DNA of 64,000 nucleotides, taken from assembly GCF_035917455.1 (NCBI RefSeq), contig NZ_CP109078.1, positions 7,362,001-7,426,000 of the forward strand, given 5' to 3'. Within the stretch, counting starts at the first letter, position 1. Each line of letters starts with the position of its first letter. The DNA is from Micromonospora sp. NBC_01796 (lineage in GTDB: Bacteria > Actinomycetota > Actinomycetes > Mycobacteriales > Micromonosporaceae). Shown here piece after piece: positions 20,874 to 33,878 of this stretch. A program made the position numbers and the translations under genes. The notes under the pieces were generated by a model. It ran no database searches and was not told the origin of the DNA. It saw only the letters and a program-made list of their open reading frames with translations.

Positions 20874-21683
20874 CTACGGCCACCGCGACGTACTGTCACC
20901 GAAAAGGGCACGTCGGCGCCCCAACCCGACCCGGCGTTCCTGCAGGCACCACAGCGTCACCCGCCACAGCGCCTCGGCGATGATCAGCGGGCTCATCTTG
21001 CTCGCCCCGTGCTCCCGCTCGGCGAAGGTGATCGGGACCTCCACGGTCCGCAATCCGGCCCGGTGCGCCCGCCAGGACAGTTCCACCTGGAACGAGTACC
21101 CCTGGGAGGCGACCGACTCGAAGTCCATCTTGTCCAACGCCGGCAGCCGGTAGATCCGGTACCCGCCGGTGGCGTCGGACATCGGCATACCCAACGCCAG
21201 CCGGGTGTACAGGTTCCCGCCCCGGGAGAGCAGTTGCCGGCGCCACGGCCAGTTGACCACCTCACCGCCGGAGGTCCACCGGGAACCGATGACGACGTCG
21301 GCGTCACGGGCCGCGTCGAGCAGCCGGGGCAGTTCCTCCGGGGCGTGGGAGCCGTCGGCGTCCATCTCCGCGACCGCGTCGTACCCGTGGTCGCGTGCCC
21401 AGCCGAACCCGGCCACGTACGCCGCCCCCAGGCCCTGTTTACCGGGCCGGTGCAGCACGTGGACGAACTCGTCCGCGGCCGCCAGTCGGTCGGCGACCGC
21501 CCCGGTCCCGTCCGGGCTGTTGTCGTCGGCGATCAGGACCTCCACCGACGGAACCGCCTGACGCAGCCGCTCGGTGATGACAACAACGTTGTCCGCCTCG
21601 TTGTACGTGGGAATGACGACCAGGACGCGTCCCACGCCCGGATATCCCGTCATGCGCTCGACCGCACCGGTTGTCTCACTCAC
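20874..21683 (-). CDS. ppm1: polyprenol-phosphate mannosyltransferase (Ppm1-type)
   Basis: A 269-residue GT2 glycosyltransferase: VVIPTYNEADN at residues 22-32, DDNSPDGT, the GLGAAYVAGFGWARDHGYDAVAEMDADGSH metal/nucleotide region, and the C-terminal TFAEREHGASKMS segment. It makes polyprenyl-phosphate-mannose from GDP-mannose at the inner face of the membrane, the donor for protein mannosylation and lipoglycans. There are no C-terminal membrane helices, so it is the soluble catalytic type. Its ATG overlaps the stop of the acyltransferase gene (ATGA). In Mycobacterium the two functions are carried on one polypeptide. Confidence 0.88.
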   Translation of the reverse strand: MSETTGAVERMTGYPGVGRVLVVIPTYNEADNVVVITERLRQAVPSVEVLIADDNSPDGTGAVADRLAAADEFVHVLHRPGKQGLGAAYVAGFGWARDHGYDAVAEMDADGSHAPEELPRLLDAARDADVVIGSRWTSGGEVVNWPWRRQLLSRGGNLYTRLALGMPMSDATGGYRIYRLPALDKMDFESVASQGYSFQVELSWRAHRAGLRTVEVPITFAEREHGASKMSPLIIAEALWRVTLWCLQERRVGLGRRRALFGDSTSRWP

Positions 21684-23392
21684 CGCTCCTCCGCATCTGC
21701 CGCGGTCGCGGGGTCGACATCACCCCCCGCCACCGACGGACCGTCTGCGGGGACCACCCGGCGCCGGCGGGTCACCACGGCCGTCACGAGCGCCGCGACG
21801 GCCAGACCCACCAGCACCACCTCGGGCCAGAAACCGACCCGGGTGGCGACCGTACGGGCGTCCCCGAGGTGCACTTCCCGGACCACCACCGCTGGGGTGT
21901 TGAACCCGGTCGCACCGGTTACCCGCCCATCGGCCCCGACGAACCCGGACACCCCGACCGTGGAGGCCATCAGCGCCTCACGGCCGTGCTCGACCGCCCG
22001 TAACTGCACCATCGCCATCTGCTGGCGGGCCTCGGCCACGTCGAACGTGGCGTTGTTCGTCTGCACCACCAGCAGCTGCGCCCCACCGGTGACGGTGTCC
22101 CGGACCACCTCGTCGTACGCGACCTCGAAGCAGATGACGTCGCCGAGGGTCACCCCACCGGTGGTGATGACACCGGGCCGGGTGCCGGCGACGAAATCCG
22201 ACCGGACCCGGTCGACCTCGGAGCTGACCTTGCGGGCGATGCTGCGCAGCGGGATGTACTCCGCGAACGGCACCGGATGCCGTTTGAAGTACATCTGGTC
22301 CAGATCCGGGCCGGTTCCCGGCAGCCACAGCAGTCCCGTGTTGCGGACCTGCCCCTGGCCGGGGCCGAGTAGTACCGCGCCGACCAGGATCGGCGCCTTG
22401 ATCGCGTCCGCCGCGGCGGTGATCTCGTTCGCCGCCGTCCGGTCGCGCAGCGGGTCGACGTCGCTGGCGTTCTCCGGCCAGACGACCAGGTCCGGTTGGG
22501 TCGCCGTACCGGCGGCAACCCGGGCGGCGAGGTCGATGGTGGCGTTCGCGTGGTTCTCCAGCACCGCCCGCCGCTGGGCGTTGAAGTCCAACCCGAGCCG
22601 GGGCACGTTGCCCTGGACGATCGCCACGGTGGCGGCACCGGAGCCGGCGCCGGAACCCAACGGCACCAGCAGCCCGACCAGGACCACCGCCACCGCCGCC
22701 ACGGCGGCACCGAGCGCCGGCAGACCGGCCCGTACTCGGCCGGAGTCGGAGGAGGGGTCCACGGCGGCGGGGCGACGCCACCCGGTGGCCGCCCACCAGC
22801 CGGCGGCGACCAGGAACCCGCCGGCGAGCGCGGTCACGAACGTCACCAGCGGTGCCCCGCCGAGGACCGCCCACCGCACCAGCGGCGAATCCGCCTGGCT
22901 GAACGCCAGCCGCCCCCACGGGAACCCACCGAACGGGGTCCGGTCCCGCAGCGCCTCCTGCGCCACCCACAGGACCCCGGTCACCGCCGGCCACGACCAG
23001 CGCCACCGGTCCACCACCGGGCTCACCAGGGCGGTGGCCAACCCCAGCAGAGCCAGGTAGCCGGCCTGCAACCCGGACAGCAGCAGCCACGGCAGGTAAC
23101 CGGTGTGCAGGTTCGTCCAGGCCAACATCGGCACAAACAGGGCCAAGCCGGTCAACGCGCCCAGTCCGACGCCGGCCCGTAACCGGCGCCGGTGCGTCGC
23201 GGCGGCGAGCAACGCCACCCCGACCGGCGCCAGCCACCACAGCCCGTACGGCGGGAAGGCGAGCAGCAGCGCCCCACCGCCCGCCAGGGCCGCCAGGACC
23301 GCGACCCACAACGGCAGCGGCCGGGGCCGTTCACCGGCCGACACCACCGGTTCGTGACCCGTCCCGAGCCGCGTGTCCGCCGAGTCCACCAT
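21680..23392 (-). CDS. lnt: apolipoprotein N-acyltransferase
   Basis: A 570-residue membrane enzyme: six to eight hydrophobic segments in the first 230 residues, then a nitrilase-like domain with the catalytic Glu (VVWPENAS), Lys (MYFKRHPVPFAEY) and Cys (VICFEVAYD), and a last C-terminal membrane helix. It N-acylates the lipid-modified Cys of lipoproteins outside the membrane. The ATG at 23392 is used because the open frame upstream is Arg/Gly-rich and contains a terminator. It is coupled to the downstream mannosyltransferase gene by ATGA. Confidence 0.88.
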   Translation of the reverse strand: MVDSADTRLGTGHEPVVSAGERPRPLPLWVAVLAALAGGGALLLAFPPYGLWWLAPVGVALLAAATHRRRLRAGVGLGALTGLALFVPMLAWTNLHTGYLPWLLLSGLQAGYLALLGLATALVSPVVDRWRWSWPAVTGVLWVAQEALRDRTPFGGFPWGRLAFSQADSPLVRWAVLGGAPLVTFVTALAGGFLVAAGWWAATGWRRPAAVDPSSDSGRVRAGLPALGAAVAAVAVVLVGLLVPLGSGAGSGAATVAIVQGNVPRLGLDFNAQRRAVLENHANATIDLAARVAAGTATQPDLVVWPENASDVDPLRDRTAANEITAAADAIKAPILVGAVLLGPGQGQVRNTGLLWLPGTGPDLDQMYFKRHPVPFAEYIPLRSIARKVSSEVDRVRSDFVAGTRPGVITTGGVTLGDVICFEVAYDEVVRDTVTGGAQLLVVQTNNATFDVAEARQQMAMVQLRAVEHGREALMASTVGVSGFVGADGRVTGATGFNTPAVVVREVHLGDARTVATRVGFWPEVVLVGLAVAALVTAVVTRRRRVVPADGPSVAGGDVDPATAADAEER

Positions 23393-23934
23393 CGCCACCT
23401 GCGCCTCACCACCAGTCCGGCCACCACCGCACCGATCGGCGGCGGATCTTCCCCGGCGAAGGCTACCGGCCCACCCCGTTCCCACCACCACGTCCGGCCC
23501 CGACAGCACCGGCCCGCCGGAAAACGGGTGCCGTCCGGGCAGACAAAATCGGGGCGCGGCCAATGGCCGCGCCCCGATGCTCCCAGGCCCTTCCCGGCCG
23601 GTGTGGCAGAGATGACCCGTCACGACCTTCGGACCGACCGGAGGAGGACTGGCTGTCCCCGTCAGGCCGTTGTCTACTGGCCGTGCACGTCATCCTGCCC
23701 TTACACCGGTAACCGCGGCCGGTTCGCGCCGCCCCGCCGACCCCCGCCCGCTGGACCTGGCCGCTGCGACATCGAAAACAGTCACTCGGCCAGCGGACGA
23801 AGGGACGAAGCGAACAACAGCCGCTTCCCGTGGTAGGACTCAAAGACGGTACGTGGTGGACCCCCGGCCCTGTCAACCGCCAGCGGCCAAGTCGGCCCGA
23901 TCAATTCGGCGTGTCGGACCCCGCGAGTCGCCGA
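23393..23934. other. gene-free stretch between lnt and the kam locus
   Basis: These 542 bases contain the strong hairpin at 23548-23578 and no coding frame that looks real on either strand. The part 23579-23934 lies between the end of the MutL-like gene and that terminator, so it would be a 3' untranslated region of about 360 bases; I looked for a tRNA-like fold there and saw none. Confidence 0.5.
23548..23578 (-). terminator. intrinsic terminator, end of the leftward kam transcript
   Basis: A 14-base perfect stem (ATCGGGGCGCGGCC) with a three-base loop, followed on the minus strand by TTTTGTCT. No other minus-strand gene lies between it and the MutL-like gene at 23935, so it probably ends the lysine-aminomutase operon; it also insulates the lnt promoter. 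Confidence 0.85.
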
Positions 23935-25275
23935 TCAATCCCCGACGAGCAGATACCGGCGCAACAGGGCGACCGCCGTAACCGGATGTTCCGCAGCCAA
24001 CAACCCCGCGGCGGCCAGCACATACTGATCATCAACGACCGGTGTCGCCGCCCTCGGCAACGCCCACCCACCGCCGTGGTCGGCCAACACCGCATCGAGG
24101 ACCGCCACCGCCTCCTGCGCCCCGGCGTGGCGAAGGACACCCCCCGAACCGATGATCAACCGGACGTCCCGCAGATCACGGCCCCCGCCATCGCCGACCG
24201 AAGCGCCCCGCGCATGCCGCCGCAACGCCACCGTCGCCGCCAACCCGGCGATCCGCCGGTCGACCGCCCGCGCCCCCGCATCAACCGCCAGGAACCCCGG
24301 ATCCGCCGCCCGGTCGGCGGCCGCGGCCGTCAACAACTCCACCTCACCCGCGACCAGCATCCGCTCCGCCTGCGCCGCCGCCACCACCCCCGGCGCGCTC
24401 CACCGCATCCCCAGGTCACCCTCGACCGTCCGGGCCCGCCACAACGTCCCTGCGGCCGCCCGCGCCGGCCCCTTCGCCCGCTCGTCCGGCGTCAGCACCG
24501 AATACACGTCCGTGGTCGCACCACCGACGTCGACGACCACCAGGTCACCGGAGAGCTGGTCGGCGAGCACCTCCACCCCGGTCAGGACAGCCTCCGGGGT
24601 CGCCGCCCGAACCAACCCGGCGAACCGGGTACCACGCGACAGCCGCTTCCCACCGATCACATGCCGCAGGAACACGTCCCGGATCGCCGCCCGCGCCGAC
24701 AACGGCGCCAACACCCCGATCCGCGGCAACACGTTCCCGGCCACCGTCACCGGCACCCCCCGGTCGGCCAACACCCCGGCGACCTCCGAACGGACCTCCA
24801 CGTTCCCGGCCACCACCACCGGCACCCGCCACCGGGCCGCCGCCAACCGGGCCGCGTTGTGCAACAGCACCTCACCATCACCGCCGTCGGTCCCCCCGAC
24901 CAGCAGCACCACGTCCGGTCGCGCCGCCCGCAGACCGGTCACACCCGCCCGGTCCAACCGGCCCGCGCCGACGTGCACCACCCGCGCCCCGGCCGACAGC
25001 CCGACCTGCTGCCCCGCCCGCGCCGTCACCAACTCCTCGTAACCGACCACCGCCAGGCGCAACCCGCCACCGGCCGACGAGCACACGTACCACGGCATCG
25101 CCGCGGCATCCGGGCCCGCCGCCTGCGTGACCGCGGCATCCAGGCCGCGCAGCACATCGGAACCGACCGTCGTCGGTCGAGCCGCCGACGCCACCAACGC
25201 CCCGGTGGCCAACTCCACCACCGCTACCTTCGTGAACGTCGAACCGACGTCGGCGCAGACCGCATACCCGCTCAC
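23935..25275 (-). CDS. MutL/GlmL-like aminomutase reactivating ATPase
   Basis: A 446-residue ASKHA-fold protein: phosphate-1 motif ADVGSTFTKVAV at residues 8-19, phosphate-2 motif VVVDVGGATTDVYS at 246-259, a PDVVLLVGGTDGGD loop at 120-133, and the adenosine motif IIGSGGVLRH near 375. This is the MutL/GlmL family, found beside B12-dependent mutases, which removes damaged cobalamin and reactivates them. In lysine fermenters the kam locus carries a similar gene. The GTG overlaps the stop of the hotdog gene (GTGA). It most likely serves KamDE. Confidence 0.8.
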   Translation of the reverse strand: MSGYAVCADVGSTFTKVAVVELATGALVASAARPTTVGSDVLRGLDAAVTQAAGPDAAAMPWYVCSSAGGGLRLAVVGYEELVTARAGQQVGLSAGARVVHVGAGRLDRAGVTGLRAARPDVVLLVGGTDGGDGEVLLHNAARLAAARWRVPVVVAGNVEVRSEVAGVLADRGVPVTVAGNVLPRIGVLAPLSARAAIRDVFLRHVIGGKRLSRGTRFAGLVRAATPEAVLTGVEVLADQLSGDLVVVDVGGATTDVYSVLTPDERAKGPARAAAGTLWRARTVEGDLGMRWSAPGVVAAAQAERMLVAGEVELLTAAAADRAADPGFLAVDAGARAVDRRIAGLAATVALRRHARGASVGDGGGRDLRDVRLIIGSGGVLRHAGAQEAVAVLDAVLADHGGGWALPRAATPVVDDQYVLAAAGLLAAEHPVTAVALLRRYLLVGD

Positions 25276-25703
25276 AGCAGCCGCGGCACCGCGCCCGGCG
25301 CCCCACCCGGTGGTGGTGCCGGCACCACCACCGTCCCGGTCGCCGTCACCGCCACCAACGGCGGATCCAACACCTCCGCCGCCGAAGCCCCCCGCTCCGG
25401 CCTCCCCCGACACACCACCCGGCACTCGAAGTCGATCGTCCGGCTCCGGGTACCGACCCGGGTCACCGTCGCCACCACCTCCAGCACGTCACCGGCCCGC
25501 ACCGGCGCCCGGAACTGCACCTCGCCGTACGAGGCGAACAACCCCTCGTCCCCGTCGGTACGGATACACACCTCCGTCGCCACGTCCCCGAACAACCCCA
25601 ACGCGTACGCCCCGTCGACCAGATCCCCCGCATAGTGCGCGTGCCCGTACGGCACATACCGCCGGTGGACCACCGTCAACCCGACCCGCTCGTCACCCAT
25701 CAC
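25272..25703 (-). CDS. hotdog-fold protein, probable 3-aminobutyryl-CoA ammonia lyase
   Basis: A 143-residue single hotdog-domain protein: the HAHYAGDLVDGAYALGLFGDVATEV segment forms the helix wrapped by strands, followed by GEVQFRAPVRAGDVLEV. Kal, the last specific enzyme of lysine fermentation (3-aminobutyryl-CoA to crotonyl-CoA plus ammonia), is a hotdog protein of about this size and is encoded within kam loci. The context therefore supports Kal, but an ordinary acyl-CoA thioesterase cannot be ruled out from sequence. The GTG overlaps the stop of kamE. An ATG follows directly as second codon. Confidence 0.65.
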   Translation of the reverse strand: MMGDERVGLTVVHRRYVPYGHAHYAGDLVDGAYALGLFGDVATEVCIRTDGDEGLFASYGEVQFRAPVRAGDVLEVVATVTRVGTRSRTIDFECRVVCRGRPERGASAAEVLDPPLVAVTATGTVVVPAPPPGGAPGAVPRLL

Positions 25704-26470
25704 CGCGTCCCCTTCGCCGCACCGACCCGGGCCTCCCGGTTGACCACCAACTCGTGCACCAGATAACTGGCCACCTCCCGAGGCGTCGTCCCCCGACCGA
25801 AGATCCGATCCACACCCAGTTCACCGGTCATCAACTCGTCGAACCGGGGCCCACCGACGATCAGCAACGGCCGCCGACCCGCCGGCATCGCCTCCCGGAA
25901 CGCCGCCGACATCTCCCGGGTGTTGTGCAGATGCGCATCCCGCTGCGTCACCACCTGCGACACCAGCACCGCGTCCGCCTTCTCCACCCGGGCCGCCTCG
26001 ACCAACTCCGGCACGCTCACCTGCGCGCCCAGGTTCGTCACCTTCAACTCCCGGTAGTACTCCAGACCCTTCTCACCCGCCACACCCTTCACGTTCAGGA
26101 TCGCGTCGATCCCGACCGTGTGCGCATCCGACCCGATACACGCCCCCACCACCGACAACTTGCGCCGCAGCCGGGACTTCACCAACGCGTTGACGTCCTT
26201 CGCCGACAACAACGGGAAATCCCGCTCCACCACCCGTACGGCATCGGTGTCGACCAGGTGGCCCACCCGCCCGTAGACGACGAAGAAGGTGAACCCGTCA
26301 CCCATCTGCTTCGCGTGCACCAGCATCGCCGGCTCCAGGCCCATCTTCCCGGCCAACTGCAACGCCGCACCCTCGGCCCGCTTGTCGTGCGCGAGCGGCA
26401 ACGTGAACGACACCTGCACCATGCCGTCACCGGTCGTGTCCCCGTACGGCCGCACCACCGACCCGGTCAC
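25700..26470 (-). CDS. kamE: lysine 5,6-aminomutase beta subunit
   Basis: A 256-residue protein. The cobalamin-binding motif D-A-H-T-V-G is at residues 115-120, with His117 the lower axial cobalt ligand. Lys128, eleven residues later (DAILNVKG), matches the spacing of the PLP-binding lysine of the known enzyme (His133/Lys144 in Clostridium sticklandii). The C terminus has the LLIVGGPR Rossmann-type strand of B12 domains. With KamD it moves the epsilon-amino group of beta-lysine or D-lysine to carbon 5 by radical chemistry. Its GTG overlaps the kamD stop. Confidence 0.9.
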   Translation of the reverse strand: MTGSVVRPYGDTTGDGMVQVSFTLPLAHDKRAEGAALQLAGKMGLEPAMLVHAKQMGDGFTFFVVYGRVGHLVDTDAVRVVERDFPLLSAKDVNALVKSRLRRKLSVVGACIGSDAHTVGIDAILNVKGVAGEKGLEYYRELKVTNLGAQVSVPELVEAARVEKADAVLVSQVVTQRDAHLHNTREMSAAFREAMPAGRRPLLIVGGPRFDELMTGELGVDRIFGRGTTPREVASYLVHELVVNREARVGAAKGTR

Positions 26471-28074
26471 GCCGCCACCCCCCGCCCGGCCGCCGCCACC
26501 TGATCGCGCTCCAGCAACTCCGTCGCCGGGTTGTAGTAACCCTCCGCGTGCGCCGCCACCCCGGACAGGCCCTTACCCCGATCCGCCGGACGCTTCATGA
26601 TCCCGAACGTGCCCTCCGCGATCGCGTTCAACAACGTGTCGTCGGCGATCCGGGACAACAACCCCACCGCCTCGTCCAACACCCGCGACGCCCGCTGCTG
26701 GATGAACCCACCCGGCGCCGGCACGAAATCCTCGTGCAACCCACCGGCCGCACCCAACACGTACCGCACGTTCTGCAGGGCGATGTCCCGATCGGACAAC
26801 CACGGCGTCACCACCGCCTCGGTCATCATCCCGACCAGCAGAATCCCCTGCCCGGTCATCGCCCCCGCCAGGTTGAAGAACCCGTCCAACAGGTTCCCCC
26901 GGAACACGTCCCCGGTCATGTGCTTCGTCGGCGGCATCCACTTCAACGGCGCCTCCGGGAACAACTCCCGGGCCAGCAACGCATGCGCCAACTCCAACCG
27001 GAACGACTCCGGCACATCCGGATTGATCTCGAACGCGTGCCCCAGCCCCAACTGCCAGTCCGCCAACCCCGCCTCGTGCGCGAAGAACTCGTTCAGCAAC
27101 TGCGACACCGTCACCGTGTGCGCCTCGTCCACGGCATCCGCAGTGGTCAGGTAGTTGTCCTCACCGGTGTTGATGATGATCCCCGCCCGGGCGTGGACCT
27201 GCCGCGAAAACCGCTGGTCGACGAACGTACGGATCGGGTTGATGTCACGGAACAGGATCCCGTACATCGAATCGTTCAACATCATGTCCAGCCGCTCCAG
27301 GCCGGCCAACGCCGCCATCTCCGGCATGCACAACCCCGACGCGTAATTCGTCAACCGCACATACCGGCCCAGCTCCCGCGACGACTCGTCCAACGCCGCC
27401 CGCATCAACCGGAAATTCTCCTGCGTCGCGTACGTCCCCGCGAAACCCTCCCGGGTCGCCCCCTCCGGCACATAATCCAACAGGGACTGACCCGTCGACC
27501 GGATCACCGCGATCACATCCGCACCCGCCCGCGCCGCCGCCTGCGCCTGCGGAATGTCCTCGTAGATATCCCCCGTCGCCACGATCAGGTAGATCCACGG
27601 CCGCCGCACCGGATCCCCGTACCGCCGCACCAGCCGCTCCCGCTCGGCCCGCCGCCGGTCGACCAACCGCAACCCCGCACCCGTCGCCCGCCGCGCCGCC
27701 GACCGCGCCGCCGTCGCCGCCCTACCCGACGGCACCGCGAAACCCACCGACCCGGCCGCCGCCTTCTGCGCCAACAACGTCAACGCAGGCCCCACCTCAC
27801 CACCGGCCAGACCCTCCCGCGCCAACGCGTCGAACACCGGCAACGACACCCCGTGCGCCAACCCGACCTCGTCGACCACCGCATCGACCAACCGGTTCAC
27901 CCACGGAATCCCGTCCGGATCCGCCCCCGTCACCCCGGCCAGCCGCAACACGGCCCGCTCCACCGACACCGTCGTATGACCACGGGCCAGATCCACCACC
28001 GGCTGCCCGGCCCGGCGCGCCAACTCCCGCGCCCGGGCCACCACCGCCGCGTCCAACGCGAGCTTGCTCGTCAC
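26467..28074 (-). CDS. kamD: lysine 5,6-aminomutase alpha subunit
   Basis: A 535-residue TIM-barrel subunit, close to the usual ~516. Typical stretches include YLIVATGDIYEDIPQAQAAARAGADVIAVIRSTGQSLLDYVPEG, MLNDSMYGILFRDIN, IIINTGEDNYLTTADAV and KWMPPTKHMTGD, all in the order of the known D-lysine 5,6-aminomutase alpha subunit that holds adenosylcobalamin and PLP with KamE. The GTG at 28074 has AAGGGA six bases upstream; the much longer upstream frame is an antisense shadow of the amidohydrolase gene. Confidence 0.9.
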   Translation of the reverse strand: MTSKLALDAAVVARARELARRAGQPVVDLARGHTTVSVERAVLRLAGVTGADPDGIPWVNRLVDAVVDEVGLAHGVSLPVFDALAREGLAGGEVGPALTLLAQKAAAGSVGFAVPSGRAATAARSAARRATGAGLRLVDRRRAERERLVRRYGDPVRRPWIYLIVATGDIYEDIPQAQAAARAGADVIAVIRSTGQSLLDYVPEGATREGFAGTYATQENFRLMRAALDESSRELGRYVRLTNYASGLCMPEMAALAGLERLDMMLNDSMYGILFRDINPIRTFVDQRFSRQVHARAGIIINTGEDNYLTTADAVDEAHTVTVSQLLNEFFAHEAGLADWQLGLGHAFEINPDVPESFRLELAHALLARELFPEAPLKWMPPTKHMTGDVFRGNLLDGFFNLAGAMTGQGILLVGMMTEAVVTPWLSDRDIALQNVRYVLGAAGGLHEDFVPAPGGFIQQRASRVLDEAVGLLSRIADDTLLNAIAEGTFGIMKRPADRGKGLSGVAAHAEGYYNPATELLERDQVAAAGRGVAA

Positions 28075-28106
28075 GACGTTCCCTTCTCGAAACCCGCCGG
28101 GGCCGC

Positions 28107-29675
28107 TCAGTCGAGCGCCTCGTAGATCACCTGACCGCGCCGCACCGTACGCCGACACACCGGCAACGGCGTCGGATCCTCCGGCCCCCGCAACTCCACA
28201 TCCGAGGCCACCAGCACCGGCAACCCCCGCTCCACCCCCGCCGGCGCCGACCACACCGCGAACGTCGCCGGCGCACCCGGCGCCAACACACCCTCGTCGT
28301 CCCGGAACACCGCCCGCCACCCACCACGGGTGTGCGCCGCGAACGCCGCCCGCGCACTCATCCGCTGCGCCGGATTGAAATGCGCCACCGCCGCCCGCAC
28401 CGAACCCCACGGATCCAACGGCGTCACCGGCGAATCCGACCCGAACGCCAACGTCACACCCACCCCGTGCATCGCACCCATCGGATTCGACTCCAACGAC
28501 CGCGCCACCCCCAGACGCTGCGCGTACATCCGATCCTCGCCACCCCACAACCGGTCGAACGCCGGCTGCATGCTCGCCACGATCCCGTACTCGACAAAAC
28601 CGGCGATCAACCGCTTGCTCATGATCTCCGCGTGCTCCACCCGGTGCCGGGCCGCCCGCAGCCGATCCACCCCCAACGTCCCCGCCGCCAGCGCGAACCC
28701 GTCCAGCACCGTCCCGATCGCCGCGTCCCCGATCGCGTGGAACCCACCCTGCATCCCGTGCCGCGCACAATCCAACAGATGGTCACGGACCTGCTCCGCC
28801 GACACGTACCCGTGCCCGCACGCACCCTCGTCACCATCGAGGTACGCCGACGACAGATGCGCCGTACGCGAACCCAACGCCCCGTCGGCGAACAGGTCCC
28901 CACCGGCACCCACCGCACCCAACTCCCGCGCCCGCGCCGCCCCCATCAACTCACCCCAGTAGCCGAACACCTCCGGCCCACCGTCACCGGACAACGCCAA
29001 CACACCCGCGAAATCCACCTCATCGGAGATGTCCGGACCACCGCACTCGTGCACCGCCGCGATCCCCAACGACGCCGCCCGCGCCAACGCCACCCGCTGC
29101 GCCGCCACCCGCTGCTCCCGGGTCACCGACCCGAACGCCAACGCCCGCACCACATGGTGCGCGTCGCGCCGCAACCAACCCGACGCGTCGTACCCGGCCG
29201 CCGACACCACCTCCGGCGCCGCCGCCAGCAACGCCGACGAACACAACGCCGAATGGATCGACGCCTGCGACAGGTACACCCGCCGCCCACCCGCCGCCCG
29301 GTCCAACTCCGCCGCCGACGGCGGCCGCTGATCCGACCAGTACGACTCGTCCCAACCGTGCCCCAACACCACCGCGTCCGCCGGCAGAGCCGCCGCGAAC
29401 GCCGCCACCGCCGCGCTCACCTCCGCCCCCGACCGGGCCGACGACAGATCCAGCCCGGACAACGCCAGCCCGGTGTCGGTCGCGTGCACGTGCGAATCCA
29501 CGAACGCCGGCGTCACCAGCGCACCCGCGAGATCCACCACCACATCGGCGGGCGGCGCGTCCGCGTCCGCGCCAATCCAGGCAATCCGGTCGTCCCGGAC
29601 CAACAACGCGGTCGCCGTCGGATCACCGGGGCAGTAGAGGTGGCCACCGCGGTACAGAGTCGAGGGGGAAGTCAT
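28107..29675 (-). CDS. YtcJ-like metal-dependent amidohydrolase
   Basis: A 522-residue amidohydrolase-superfamily protein: the VTPAFVDSHVHATDTG strand-1 metal motif (HVH), the LFADGALGSRTAHLS region, GFHAIGDAA, RHRVEHAE, and the late Asp in FGSDSPVTPLDP. This order is that of the YtcJ/exoenzyme-regulatory type (amidohydrolase family 3). It sits between kdd (four bases upstream) and kamD (32 bases downstream), clearly in the same operon, but it has no role in the textbook lysine fermentation pathway. It may hydrolyse a cyclic lactam or amide formed from a pathway amine. Confidence 0.8.
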   Translation of the reverse strand: MTSPSTLYRGGHLYCPGDPTATALLVRDDRIAWIGADADAPPADVVVDLAGALVTPAFVDSHVHATDTGLALSGLDLSSARSGAEVSAAVAAFAAALPADAVVLGHGWDESYWSDQRPPSAAELDRAAGGRRVYLSQASIHSALCSSALLAAAPEVVSAAGYDASGWLRRDAHHVVRALAFGSVTREQRVAAQRVALARAASLGIAAVHECGGPDISDEVDFAGVLALSGDGGPEVFGYWGELMGAARARELGAVGAGGDLFADGALGSRTAHLSSAYLDGDEGACGHGYVSAEQVRDHLLDCARHGMQGGFHAIGDAAIGTVLDGFALAAGTLGVDRLRAARHRVEHAEIMSKRLIAGFVEYGIVASMQPAFDRLWGGEDRMYAQRLGVARSLESNPMGAMHGVGVTLAFGSDSPVTPLDPWGSVRAAVAHFNPAQRMSARAAFAAHTRGGWRAVFRDDEGVLAPGAPATFAVWSAPAGVERGLPVLVASDVELRGPEDPTPLPVCRRTVRRGQVIYEALD

Positions 29676-29679
29676 GTGA

Positions 29680-30711
29680 TCAGTCTGCCGCGATCCGGGC
29701 CTCGAACAACGCACGCACCCCGGGCTCGGACCGCACCAGCTCCAACGCCAACTCGGCGTGCCCCGGCACGTACCCGTTCCCGACCAGCATCGTCACGTCC
29801 GCGGCCAACCCCTCCGCACCCAACGCCGCCGCCGCGAAACTCGTCGCCATCGAGAAGAAGATCACCGTACCGCCGTCCGCGGTCGCCAGGATCGCCCCGT
29901 GCTCGCACCCCGGCACGTCCACGCAGACCACTGTCACGTCCGCCGGACCACCCAACGCCCCGGACACCGCCGCCGCCAACGCCACCGGATCACGGGCGTC
30001 GGCCAACGCGACCTCCGTGGCCAGCCCGGCCGCGAGGAGCCGGTCCCGCTCCGCCGACACCGGCACCACCCCCACCGTACGACCGGCACCCGCCCGCCGC
30101 GCGGCGGCCAACGCCAACGCCCCGCTCTTACCGCCCCCGCCCAGCACCGCCACCGACGGGGACGCGTACCCCGACACCACCCGGGCGGTCAGCGCCGGGG
30201 CCCCGCACACGTCCAGGACCGCCAGACTCAACCGCGGATCGAGGTCGTCCGGCAGCACCGCGACCACCGACCGGGCGAACAACACCGCGAACCCGGCGCA
30301 CGGCACCTGCTCGCCGAGCCCGTCCCAGCCGGCCAGAGCGTCGGTGACGACCAGCGGGGTCAGCGTCAGCGACACCAGGGTCGCCACCCGATCGCCCGGC
30401 ACCACCTTCAGCGGCGAGGACGGCCCGACCTCGTCCACCACCCCGATCAGCATGCCGCCCGAGCCTGTGACCGGATTATGCATCTTCCCCCGAGATGTGA
30501 TGATCTCCAGGACCTCGGCCCGCACCGCCGCCCCGTCGCCACCGTGCTTCTCCGACAACTGCCGGAAACTCGCCGCGTCCAGGTTCAGCCGCTCCACGCG
30601 GATCCGCACCTCGTCCGCGCCGACCGGACCACCCGGATCGAGCCGCCACGCCGCCTGAGGCAACACGCCGACCGGTTCGAGCACACGGTGCAGCCCCACG
30701 GGTGAGGTCAT
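29680..30711 (-). CDS. kdd: L-erythro-3,5-diaminohexanoate dehydrogenase
   Basis: A 343-residue NAD(P)-dependent enzyme with a GroES-like N-terminal part and a Rossmann fold at residues 186-198 (SVAVLGGGGKSGAL). It oxidatively deaminates 3,5-diaminohexanoate to 3-keto-5-aminohexanoate. Support: the RLNLDAASFRQL and SRGKMHNPVTGSGGMLIG segments that I associate with Kdd, and the position next to kamD/kamE. No zinc ligand cluster of the alcohol dehydrogenase kind is present. The ATG is preceded by GGAAGGGG. It is the first gene of the leftward operon, divergent from kamA. Confidence 0.85.
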   Translation of the reverse strand: MTSPVGLHRVLEPVGVLPQAAWRLDPGGPVGADEVRIRVERLNLDAASFRQLSEKHGGDGAAVRAEVLEIITSRGKMHNPVTGSGGMLIGVVDEVGPSSPLKVVPGDRVATLVSLTLTPLVVTDALAGWDGLGEQVPCAGFAVLFARSVVAVLPDDLDPRLSLAVLDVCGAPALTARVVSGYASPSVAVLGGGGKSGALALAAARRAGAGRTVGVVPVSAERDRLLAAGLATEVALADARDPVALAAAVSGALGGPADVTVVCVDVPGCEHGAILATADGGTVIFFSMATSFAAAALGAEGLAADVTMLVGNGYVPGHAELALELVRSEPGVRALFEARIAAD

Positions 30712-30849
30712 CGAAGCGCCCCTTCCAAAGTCAGTCACGTTGCCAACAGATCGCGTTGCGGGAAAACTTACGGCAGAATAATTCCTGCACAGGATATTTT
30801 CCAGTAGCCTTCGGACCGTCACCGGTACCGCGCAGCCCGAGGAGGGTCC
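30712..30849. promoter_or_regulatory. divergent AT-rich promoter region, kdd / kamA
   Basis: A 138-base region between two divergent lysine-pathway genes. It contains GGAAAA (30761-30766) inverted as TTTTCC (30797-30802) around an AT-rich core, and two GTTGC copies at about 30739 and 30755. The arrangement fits a shared operator and back-to-back promoters, so both halves of the pathway are likely switched together. Confidence 0.5.
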
Positions 30850-32265
30850 GTGACGCAGACACACCCAGTTGAGGCCATCCCGGAGCCGCGGCCGACCGAC
30901 ACCACCACACCACTCGCCGGCCAACCGTACGAATACCGCCGCCGACCGCTGGTCGAACCCGACTGGACCCGGTTCCCCGGCTGGCGCCACGTCACCCGCG
31001 AACAGTGGGAATCGGCCCAGTGGCAACGCACCAACTGCGTCAAGAACGCCAAACAGCTCCGCGCCGTACTCGGCGACCTCGTCGACGACAGCTTCTACAC
31101 CGACCTCGCCGCCGACCAGGCCGCGCTGGCCACCATGTCGATGCTGGTCCCACCACAGATGATCAACACGATGGTGCCGGACGCGCCGATGACCACGGAG
31201 GCGTTCCTCGCCGACCCGGTCCGCCGCTACATGATCCCGGTCGCCTCGGACCGGCGCACCGACTGGCCGTCACACCCGTACGCGACCCGCGACTCGCTCC
31301 ACGAACACGACATGTGGGTCGCCGAGGGCCTCACCCACCGCTACCCCACCAAGGTCCTCGCCGAACTGCTCTCCACCTGCCCCCAGTACTGCGGGCACTG
31401 CACCCGGATGGACCTCGTCGGCAACTCCACCCCCACCGTCGACAAGCTCAAACTCAGCCTCAAGCCGGTCGACCGCTACGACGGCCACATCAACTACCTC
31501 CGCGCCCACCCGGGCGTACGCGACGTGGTCGTCTCGGGCGGCGACGTCGCCAACGTCCCCTGGCGCAACCTCGAGTCGTACCTGATGCGCCTGCTCGAAA
31601 TCGAGACCATCCGCGACATCCGGCTCGCCACCAAGGCCCTGATGGGACTCCCCCAGCACTGGCTGCAGCCCGACGTCGTCGAAGGCCTCGAACGCGTCGC
31701 CCGCACCGCCGCCCGCCGGGGCGTCAACCTGGCCATCCACACCCACGTCAACCATGCCCAGTCACTCACCCCACTGGTCGCCCGAGCCGCGCAGACCGCA
31801 CTCGAGGTCGGCGTACGCGACGTACGCAACCAGGGCGTACTGATGCGCGGCGTGAACGCCACCGCACCGGACCTGCTCGACCTCTGCTTCGCGCTCCAGG
31901 GCGAGGCCGGCATCCTGCCGTACTACTTCTACATGTGCGACATGATCCCCAACGCCGAGCACTGGCGGGTGCCGGTCTGGCACGCCCAGCAACTCCAGCA
32001 CGACATGATGGGCTACCTGCCGGGTTACGCCACCCCACGGATCGTCTGCGACGTGCCGTTCGTCGGCAAGCGCTGGGTGCACATGCTCACCGAGTACGAC
32101 CGCGAGCGCGGCATCTCCTACTGGACCAAGAACTACCGCACCTCCATCGAATCGGCCGACCTGGCCGCGGTCGGCCGGCGATACGCCTACTACGACCCGA
32201 TCGACACCTTGCCGGAGTCCGGGCAGGCCTGGTGGGCGACCCACGAGCCGAGCACCCTGACCTGA
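30850..32265 (+). CDS. kamA: lysine 2,3-aminomutase (KamA family radical SAM)
   Basis: A 471-residue radical SAM enzyme: the CxxxCxxC cluster motif is Cys177, Cys181, Cys184 (CPQYCGHC), followed by the VVVSGGD SAM-binding strand at about 226-232. Asp364 (YMCDM) and Asp401 (VCDVP) match the two aspartates that read the lysine substrate amino group, and Lys407 is placed like the PLP lysine, although the loop reads PFVGK instead of the usual PGGGGK. It converts L-lysine to L-beta-lysine. The GTG start has GAGGAGG five bases upstream. Confidence 0.88.
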   Translation: MTQTHPVEAIPEPRPTDTTTPLAGQPYEYRRRPLVEPDWTRFPGWRHVTREQWESAQWQRTNCVKNAKQLRAVLGDLVDDSFYTDLAADQAALATMSMLVPPQMINTMVPDAPMTTEAFLADPVRRYMIPVASDRRTDWPSHPYATRDSLHEHDMWVAEGLTHRYPTKVLAELLSTCPQYCGHCTRMDLVGNSTPTVDKLKLSLKPVDRYDGHINYLRAHPGVRDVVVSGGDVANVPWRNLESYLMRLLEIETIRDIRLATKALMGLPQHWLQPDVVEGLERVARTAARRGVNLAIHTHVNHAQSLTPLVARAAQTALEVGVRDVRNQGVLMRGVNATAPDLLDLCFALQGEAGILPYYFYMCDMIPNAEHWRVPVWHAQQLQHDMMGYLPGYATPRIVCDVPFVGKRWVHMLTEYDRERGISYWTKNYRTSIESADLAAVGRRYAYYDPIDTLPESGQAWWATHEPSTLT

Positions 32266-32672: not shown

Positions 32673-33248
32673 GTGGCAGAGATCGTTCTCATCCGGCACG
32701 GCGAAACCGAGTGGAGTGCCGCACACCGGCACACCTCGTACACCGATCTGGCCCTCAACCCCGCCGGGGAGCGCCAGGCCCGCGCGGTTCGCGACCAGCT
32801 CGCTGGTCGGCGCTTCGCCGCGGTCATCTCCAGCCCCCGCACCCGGGCGCTGCGCACGGCCGAGTTGGCGGGCCTGACCGTCACCACGGTCGACGACAAC
32901 CTCGCCGAATGGAACTACGGCGACTACGAGGGACGCACCACCAAGGAGATCCAACAGGAACGGCCGGGTTGGAACCTCTGGACCGACGGTTGTCCGGACG
33001 GTGAGTCCCCCGAGCAGGTCGGGGGACGGCTCGACCGGATCCTGAACCGGGCCACCGAACTGCTCGCCGACGGTGACGTCGCCCTGGTCGCGCACGGGCA
33101 CAGCCTCCGGGTCGCCGGCGCCCGCTGGATCGGGCTACCCGCCAGCGGCGGCGGCCTGCTCCGGCTGGACACGGCCACCGTCTCCGCGCTCGGCTACGAG
33201 CACGATCGCCGGGTGATCCTGCGCTGGAACACCGGCGGTGCCGCCTGA
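32673..33248 (+). CDS. histidine phosphatase (phosphoglycerate-mutase-like)
   Basis: A 191-residue protein with the catalytic RHGE motif (VLIRHGETEWS; phospho-His9), the SSPRTRALRTA segment with two Arg, and the second catalytic His in VAHGHSLR. The GTG start follows a short AT-rich leader. Small branch members are acid phosphatases or phosphosugar/nucleotide phosphatases; the substrate is not readable. Confidence 0.88.
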   Translation: MAEIVLIRHGETEWSAAHRHTSYTDLALNPAGERQARAVRDQLAGRRFAAVISSPRTRALRTAELAGLTVTTVDDNLAEWNYGDYEGRTTKEIQQERPGWNLWTDGCPDGESPEQVGGRLDRILNRATELLADGDVALVAHGHSLRVAGARWIGLPASGGGLLRLDTATVSALGYEHDRRVILRWNTGGAA

Positions 33249-33255
33249 CCGCCGG

Positions 33256-33711
33256 TCACTGCGGGGTGCGACTGACCCTCGGCGGCCGGCTCTCGTACGG
33301 GGTGGAGAGCACCACCGTGGTCCGGGTGGTCACGTTCGCCGAGGTACGGATCTCCTGCAGCACCCGCTCCAGGTCGACCGGACCGGCGACCCGCACCAGC
33401 AGCAGGTAGAAGTCCTCCCCCGCCACCGAGTAGCACGACTCGATCTCCGGCAGGTGGGCCAGCCGCTCGGGCGCGTCGTCCGGCTGCGACGGGTCGAACG
33501 GCCGGACCGCCACGAAGGCCGTCAGCGGCAACTCCAACGCGTCGAACGACACCTTCGCGGTGTAACCGGTGATGACACCCCGCTGCTCCAGCCGGCGTAC
33601 CCGCTGGTGCACCGCGGACACCGACAGCCCCACCTTCTCGGCCAGGTCGGTGTACGACAAACGGCCGTCGGCGGTCAGCGCGGCGATGATGGCACGGTCG
33701 ACTTCCTCCAC
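33256..33711 (-). CDS. Lrp/AsnC family transcriptional regulator
   Basis: A 151-residue protein: N-terminal winged HTH (VDRAIIAALTADGRLSYTDLAEKVGLSVSAVHQRVRRLEQRGVI, about residues 4-48) and a C-terminal RAM ligand-binding domain (about 65-140). Such octameric regulators sense amino acids. It was started at the GTG at 33711, because the longer frame upstream is Arg/Gly/Pro-rich. It is convergent with the phosphatase gene. The nearby lysine locus makes it a candidate, but not the closest, regulator of amino-acid degradation. Confidence 0.87.
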   Translation of the reverse strand: MEEVDRAIIAALTADGRLSYTDLAEKVGLSVSAVHQRVRRLEQRGVITGYTAKVSFDALELPLTAFVAVRPFDPSQPDDAPERLAHLPEIESCYSVAGEDFYLLLVRVAGPVDLERVLQEIRTSANVTTRTTVVLSTPYESRPPRVSRTPQ

Positions 33712-33878
33712 GGCGAAGAACCTACCGGCAAAGCCCCTCGTCCGGCGAAGTCGATCCCGGGGACGCGCCGCCGCACCACCGGACGCGGTCGCCGCGCCAT
33801 GCCGGTCACCGGCCGGCGTCGGGGCCGACCGCCCGCCGGGCCGTGGCGCGGGGACGGGCCACCCGCCCCCGCTCCCAC

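Follow-up and report, generated by a model that had tools for sequence, protein, structure and literature searches.

We describe a lysine aminomutase (kam) locus in the actinobacterium Micromonospora sp. NBC_01796, found in a 64,000-nucleotide stretch of contig NZ_CP109078.1 (positions 7362001-7426000 of a single-contig genome of 8,562,983 bases; hereafter, the window). Together with a candidate gene for the 3-keto-5-aminohexanoate cleavage enzyme (Kce) that lies far outside this stretch, the locus very probably encodes a complete lysine catabolic pathway, which we propose to run in an aerobic actinobacterium. The argument is built on gene presence, family membership, conserved residues, co-occurrence across genomes and mutual exclusion with lysine 6-aminotransferase, all of them read from sequence.

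From the same data we infer each catalytic step. KamA would convert lysine to L-beta-lysine, and KamDE, a lysine 5,6-aminomutase using B12 and pyridoxal phosphate (PLP) that is probably kept active by a MutL-type ATPase, would form 3,5-diaminohexanoate, which Kdd would oxidise to 5-amino-3-oxohexanoate. With acetyl-CoA, Kce would then cleave this intermediate to acetoacetate and 3-aminobutyryl-CoA; Kal would release ammonia from the latter to give crotonyl-CoA, and acetoacetate and crotonyl-CoA would both end as acetyl-CoA.

The kam locus and a distant candidate for Kce

We compared ten proteins, from the locus and its flanking genes, with the Pfam and NCBIfam models (coordinates and scores in Table 1). 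Kal, KamE, KamD and Kdd all score above the NCBIfam equivalog cut-offs for lysine fermentation enzymes, which supports the lysine aminomutase reading put forward in the initial annotation from the window sequence; the genes it had listed for KamA, KamD, KamE, Kdd, Kal, the ATPase and an amidohydrolase are likewise in place, with slightly different starts for some (by inspection, 25275 with GTG for mutL, near 28074 for kamD and 30711 with ATG for kdd). The comparison across actinobacteria that it had suggested recovered the same gene order in relatives, and because the order recurs, the arrangement is more than chance. For this comparison the best 80 of at least 560 named KamD loci were kept, with flanks of up to 10 kb and several shorter, and all counts out of 80 refer to them. 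The best of these relatives are mostly Micromonosporaceae with about 82-90% identity in KamD, and others come from Kribbella, Nocardioides, Phycicoccus and Kineosporia. Kal is found in 79 of the 80.

KamA is the only member of its family in the genome, and its sole solved match is the lysine 2,3-aminomutase 2a5h. In an alignment with 2a5h, KamA keeps the radical S-adenosylmethionine cysteines and the counterparts of Arg134, Asp293 and Asp330, all of which are unchanged across nine KamA orthologues; the functional roles of these residues are assumed here. Lysine is proposed as the KamA substrate from its genomic context.

The initial annotation had observed that Kce and CoA-transferase genes are absent from the window, and the only matches in the genome do lie outside it. 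Two explanations had been offered, namely that Kce is encoded elsewhere or that the intermediates have another fate. Consistent with the first, the whole genome contains a single BKACE (PF05853), at 3532112-3532921 and about 3.86 Mb from kamD. This protein belongs to the BKACE fold family with 315.8 bits against PF05853, its top NCBIfam model is Kce (NF052387, 281.9 bits, followed by 3-oxoadipate:acetyl-CoA acetyltransferase at 214.7 bits), and its closest solved match is the Kce structure 2y7d (E 6.5e-61).

To place this protein among its homologues, we used a search of 61 genomes of relatives, the genome under study included. KamD has a match in 39 of them (the match in genome G055 being partial and below the cut-off), and some BKACE is present in 50. 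A BKACE with at least 60% identity to the protein of genome G000 occurs in 40, with a clean gap down to the next best at 39%. All 39 genomes with KamD fall within these 40; the remaining one is a draft of 810 contigs (G004). In a tree of 46 BKACEs, with two of the outgroup sequences on very long branches, the 40 form one clade (support 98/93). Nested inside this clade are the Kce proteins of three relatives from three genera (G012, G014 and G015) in which the gene stands directly beside kamA, that is, in 3 of 18 native kam loci. These three are the only ones of the 39 with kce and kam genes on one contig within 5 kb, some of the others being drafts, and kce is missing from the covered flanks of all 80 named kam loci. 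At the position of Glu14, a residue which we take to contact the amino group of the substrate, all 40 clade members have Glu, and the other six have Val (five) or a gap (one). Eight Kce active-site positions with presumed roles, Glu14 among them, are identical throughout the 40. Taken with the co-occurrence reported below, clade, residues and linkage in relatives make the 3.53-Mb BKACE best explained as Kce.

The kce gene has a conserved neighbourhood of its own. Of 52 Kce loci, 43 have an asparaginase II gene downstream in the same orientation, with -3 to 4360 bases between the two genes, and 24 have a YgfZ/GcvT-like gene upstream; both counts are lower bounds, many flanks spanning only about 1.5 kb. 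In the genome under study the order ygfZ, kce, asparaginase II is seen at 3.53 Mb (L017:8398-11444).

Co-occurrence in the class and alternative readings

We counted the same genes in 197 genomes drawn from the class, with a threshold of E <= 1e-60 for the Kce profile and of E <= 1e-100 for L-lysine 6-aminotransferase (TIGR03251). KamD is present in 52 genomes, a few times as fragments; Kce was found in 51, and 55 have a member of the KamA clade. Both KamD and Kce occur in 50 genomes (Fisher p 3.5e-43). Only two genomes have KamD without Kce (G082 and G207, 80% and 68% complete), and only one has Kce without KamD (G127, 380 contigs). KamD and the KamA clade share 49 genomes; KamD stands without the KamA clade in G073, G176 and G223, and the KamA clade stands without KamD in G114, G121, G127, G169, G183 and G213.

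L-lysine 6-aminotransferase, found in 49 of the 197 genomes and absent at this threshold from the genome under study, shares no genome with KamD against 12.9 expected (Fisher p 2e-8), and one genome (G114) with the KamA clade. Because some genera of family f28 carry KamD and others the aminotransferase, the exclusion is not solely one between families. It is as expected of alternative lysine routes.

Several observations weigh against a complete lysine pathway. KamA scores below the cut-offs of both lysine 2,3-aminomutase models (149.3 of 525.4 bits for TIGR03820 and 173 of 199.2 for TIGR00238), and the loop leading to its presumed PLP lysine has one residue fewer than that of 2a5h. HMMER aligns Arg408 with Lys337; we would place the PLP lysine at Lys407. 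The 3.53-Mb BKACE reaches 281.9 of the 382 bits required by the Kce equivalog model, the kam-linked Kce proteins of the three relatives also falling short of it (255.4-292.5 bits), and kce lacks the 42-bp element that lies upstream of the kam genes. Genome G223, assembled in one contig, has KamD and Kce and no KamA-clade match, which tells against a strict unit. Acetoacetyl-CoA synthetase, to which we assign a step below, occurs in 13 of 52 KamD genomes versus 96 of 145 others, and was rejected as a fixed member of the pathway. Finally, the sampled genomes are related, which makes the Fisher p-values descriptive only.

The sub-threshold Kce score, the missing element and the conserved asparaginase II cluster could also mean that the substrate of the 3.53-Mb BKACE clade is a different beta-keto acid, tied to asparaginase II and ygfZ, with 5-amino-3-oxohexanoate cleaved by an unknown enzyme. 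We regard this as very unlikely, given that kce stands beside kamA in three genera whose proteins form one clade with these, that co-occurrence with KamD is near-perfect, that the Glu14 equivalent is conserved, and that the genome holds no second BKACE.

The second explanation of the initial annotation was that the intermediates serve a natural product or an aerobic route using the amidohydrolase. It fares poorly: kce and kal widely accompany kamDE, and no amidohydrolase was found in 16 of the 80 named loci. In its fuller form, the beta-lysine or 3,5-diaminohexanoate made by the locus would go into a natural product or serve as a solute, with Kal and the amidohydrolase acting on side products. 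The KamA clade without KamD in 6 of 197 genomes indicates that beta-lysine can have other fates, and in one such genome a GNAT gene abuts kamA; however, Kce is present in 50 of 52 KamD genomes, Kal in nearly every kam locus, and the gene order recurs across Micromonosporaceae, Kribbella and Nocardioides, unlike that of a strain-specific biosynthetic cluster. We hold such a role for this locus to be highly unlikely, and retain lysine catabolism as the preferred reading.

Some loci in other genomes differ in composition. Three KamD-less genomes (L214, L215 and L216, from G121, G183 and G213) lack the kdd-kamDE-kal block between their AsnC/KamA and Lnt/GT2 neighbours; enoyl-CoA hydratase and AMP-ligase genes are present in L214, where a GNAT gene also lies near kamA, and L216 carries an Amidohydro_3 gene. 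Beta-lysine would have another fate in such loci, perhaps acetylation. In a genome of the same genus (G001), a second KamDE pair has diverged to about 45% identity with that of the window (L019:7895-10214). Its KamD has the best score among relatives (763.6 bits), and the pair lies near genes encoding a cytochrome P450 and a methyltransferase of the FkbM type; homologues of Kdd, Kal and Kce were not found in this 18-kb stretch, and the pair perhaps represents a natural-product use of the mutase. In G139, a second and distant KamD-like match (146.3 bits; L221, 2592000-2611000) adjoins a MutL homologue (36%) and is perhaps an ornithine aminomutase. In G223, a 20-kb stretch (L219) holds kamDE-kal without kamA or kdd, with kce elsewhere and kdd not searched genome-wide; this is possibly a shortened or decaying pathway.

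Regulation, accessory genes and neighbours

An alignment of the sequences upstream of 87 loci shows an imperfect dyad of 42 bp, which in the window lies between kdd and kamA. Over 86 rows, identity to the window averages 69% within this block and 47% in the rest, values inflated by close relatives; over 18 rows from Kribbella, Nocardioides and similar genera the figures are 52% and 35%. At up to three mismatches the pattern has one site in the genome, between kdd and kamA, and a reversed control has none. A repeat search at its settings did not report the dyad, giving only an inverted repeat at 30812-30850. An Lrp/AsnC regulator gene adjoins the locus here and in 54 of the 80 named loci, and its product may control the locus by binding the element.

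Co-regulation of kce through this element was considered and rejected. With a scoring model whose training set includes the window, the best scores in eight Kce stretches (L017, L149, L150, L155, L163, L164, L165 and L167) are at most -0.2, against a training median of 50.6 and a lowest training row of itself only -0.1. The initial annotation had reasoned that a kce gene in the same regulon, together with normal growth on lysine, would make this the standard pathway; as worded, a shared regulon is not what is seen, the element having its single genome site at kdd/kamA.

MutL homologues occur in 52 and amidohydrolase homologues in 64 of the 80 named loci, counts that are lowered by short contigs, on which several of the 16 loci without an amidohydrolase lie. 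The ATPase, of the MutL/GlmL family, is proposed by analogy to be the aminomutase reactivase. As a universal part of the locus MutL was rejected: it was not found in the loci of Kribbella, Nocardioides and Kineosporia, nor in L032, L033, L034 and L036, of which L036 belongs to the same family as the window, and MutL-free loci have other genes at that place or continue from kal to lnt. The Amidohydro_3 protein has no NCBIfam match at E 1e-20 and receives no specific assignment. Not every lineage needs MutL or the amidohydrolase for the pathway.

Among the flanking genes, the histidine phosphatase gene is found in 33 of the 80 named loci. Beyond the kam genes, Lnt and GT2 glycosyltransferase genes (window 20874-23623) follow here and in 63 and 56 of the 80, respectively, a lasting synteny without evident functional link.

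Table 1. Features of the kam locus and its flank, in window positions
Feature	Position	Strand	Evidence
mutL-type ATPase, proposed reactivase of B12 aminomutase	23935..25275	-	PF13941 445.1 bits; GTG start overlaps kal stop
kal, 3-aminobutyryl-CoA ammonia lyase	25272..25703	-	NF052388 193.5 bits (cut-off 160)
kamE	25700..26470	-	NF052385 343.4 bits (cut-off 280); solved relative 8t0v_C, 206.8 bits
kamD	26467..28074	-	NF052384 677.8 bits (cut-off 600); solved relative 8t0v_A, 530.1 bits
Amidohydro_3 hydrolase	28107..29714	-	PF07969 258.4 bits
kdd, L-erythro-3,5-diaminohexanoate dehydrogenase	29680..30711	-	NF052381 252.2 bits (cut-off 200)
Proposed operator: conserved imperfect dyad of 42 bp in the kdd-kamA interval	30761..30802	.	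Upstream-region alignment
kamA, diverged KamA-family radical SAM protein, proposed lysine 2,3-aminomutase	30850..32265	+	2a5h 139.9 bits
Histidine phosphatase superfamily gene, syntenic neighbour	32673..33248	+	PF00300 167.8 bits
Lrp/AsnC-family regulator, proposed regulator of the locus	33256..33798	-	PF13404 60.3 bits; PF01037 43.9 bits

Fate of the products and relation to known routes

Two CoA_trans matches, forming one pair at 7770942-7772410, are the only ones in the genome. The one subunit compared has glutaconate CoA-transferase as its nearest match (1poi_B, 141.6 bits) and scores no more than 38.1 bits against the acetoacetate and succinyl types, and the pair was therefore rejected as the activator of acetoacetate. 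Because the sole CoA_trans pair has a subunit nearest the glutaconate type and an acetoacetyl-CoA synthetase is encoded at 1763890-1765869 (TIGR01217, 797.9 bits, cut-off 520.9), acetoacetate is probably activated by the synthetase in this genome. Crotonyl-CoA is assumed to be oxidised by ordinary beta-oxidation and not reduced to butyrate. If the pathway instead ran as a true fermentation, forming butyrate when oxygen is limiting as anaerobes do, it would use core enzymes identical in kind; the CoA_trans pair, with its subunit unlike the acetoacetate and succinyl types, speaks against this rival in a weak test that included no search for butyryl-CoA dehydrogenase with Etf, and we consider it very unlikely.

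Passages of Perret et al., 2011 (PMC3149608) describe the lysine fermentation gene set and the role of Kal, together with a Cloacamonas variant in which Kat replaces Kal.

Compared to the canonical anaerobe pathway (kamA, kamD, kamE, kdd, kce and kal), the core enzymes here are alike; KamD, KamE, Kdd and Kal reach equivalog level, and KamA and Kce fall below it. The canonical pathway clusters kce, whereas here kce is 3.86 Mb away (and clustered in G012, G014 and G015), and no acetoacetate-type CoA-transferase was found in the genome, an acetoacetyl-CoA synthetase being present instead. Because clustered kce, CoA-transferase and equivalog-level KamA and Kce all fail, we class the system as a variant; it is a variant of a known pathway and not new biochemistry. 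The Cloacamonas system is likewise a variant of this pathway, with one step altered; here Kal is present and it is the location of kce that has changed, no step being replaced. The L-lysine 6-aminotransferase route is a lysine catabolic entry of the same class, met in the sample only in genomes without KamD. Among the listed titles and abstract openings of open-licence literature, none describes the aminomutase pathway in actinobacteria.

These organisms are aerobes, and they belong to a group central to antibiotic discovery. We consider it reasonably likely that the system is a widespread lysine route of aerobic Actinomycetota, in which the aminomutase pathway, documented chiefly in anaerobic fermenters, replaces lysine 6-aminotransferase and kce has long stood separately beside asparaginase II, often with ygfZ. 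An apparent pathway hole would thus be filled by a gene that neighbourhood-based annotation would miss, a caution against reading the lack of a gene in a locus as a sign of another product. It would also be explained why these genomes lack lysine 6-aminotransferase. Radical SAM enzymes of the KamA type and B12-dependent enzymes of the KamDE type are generally thought to be oxygen-sensitive; if the proposed pathway is true, two radical enzymes would carry lysine catabolism in bacteria growing in air.

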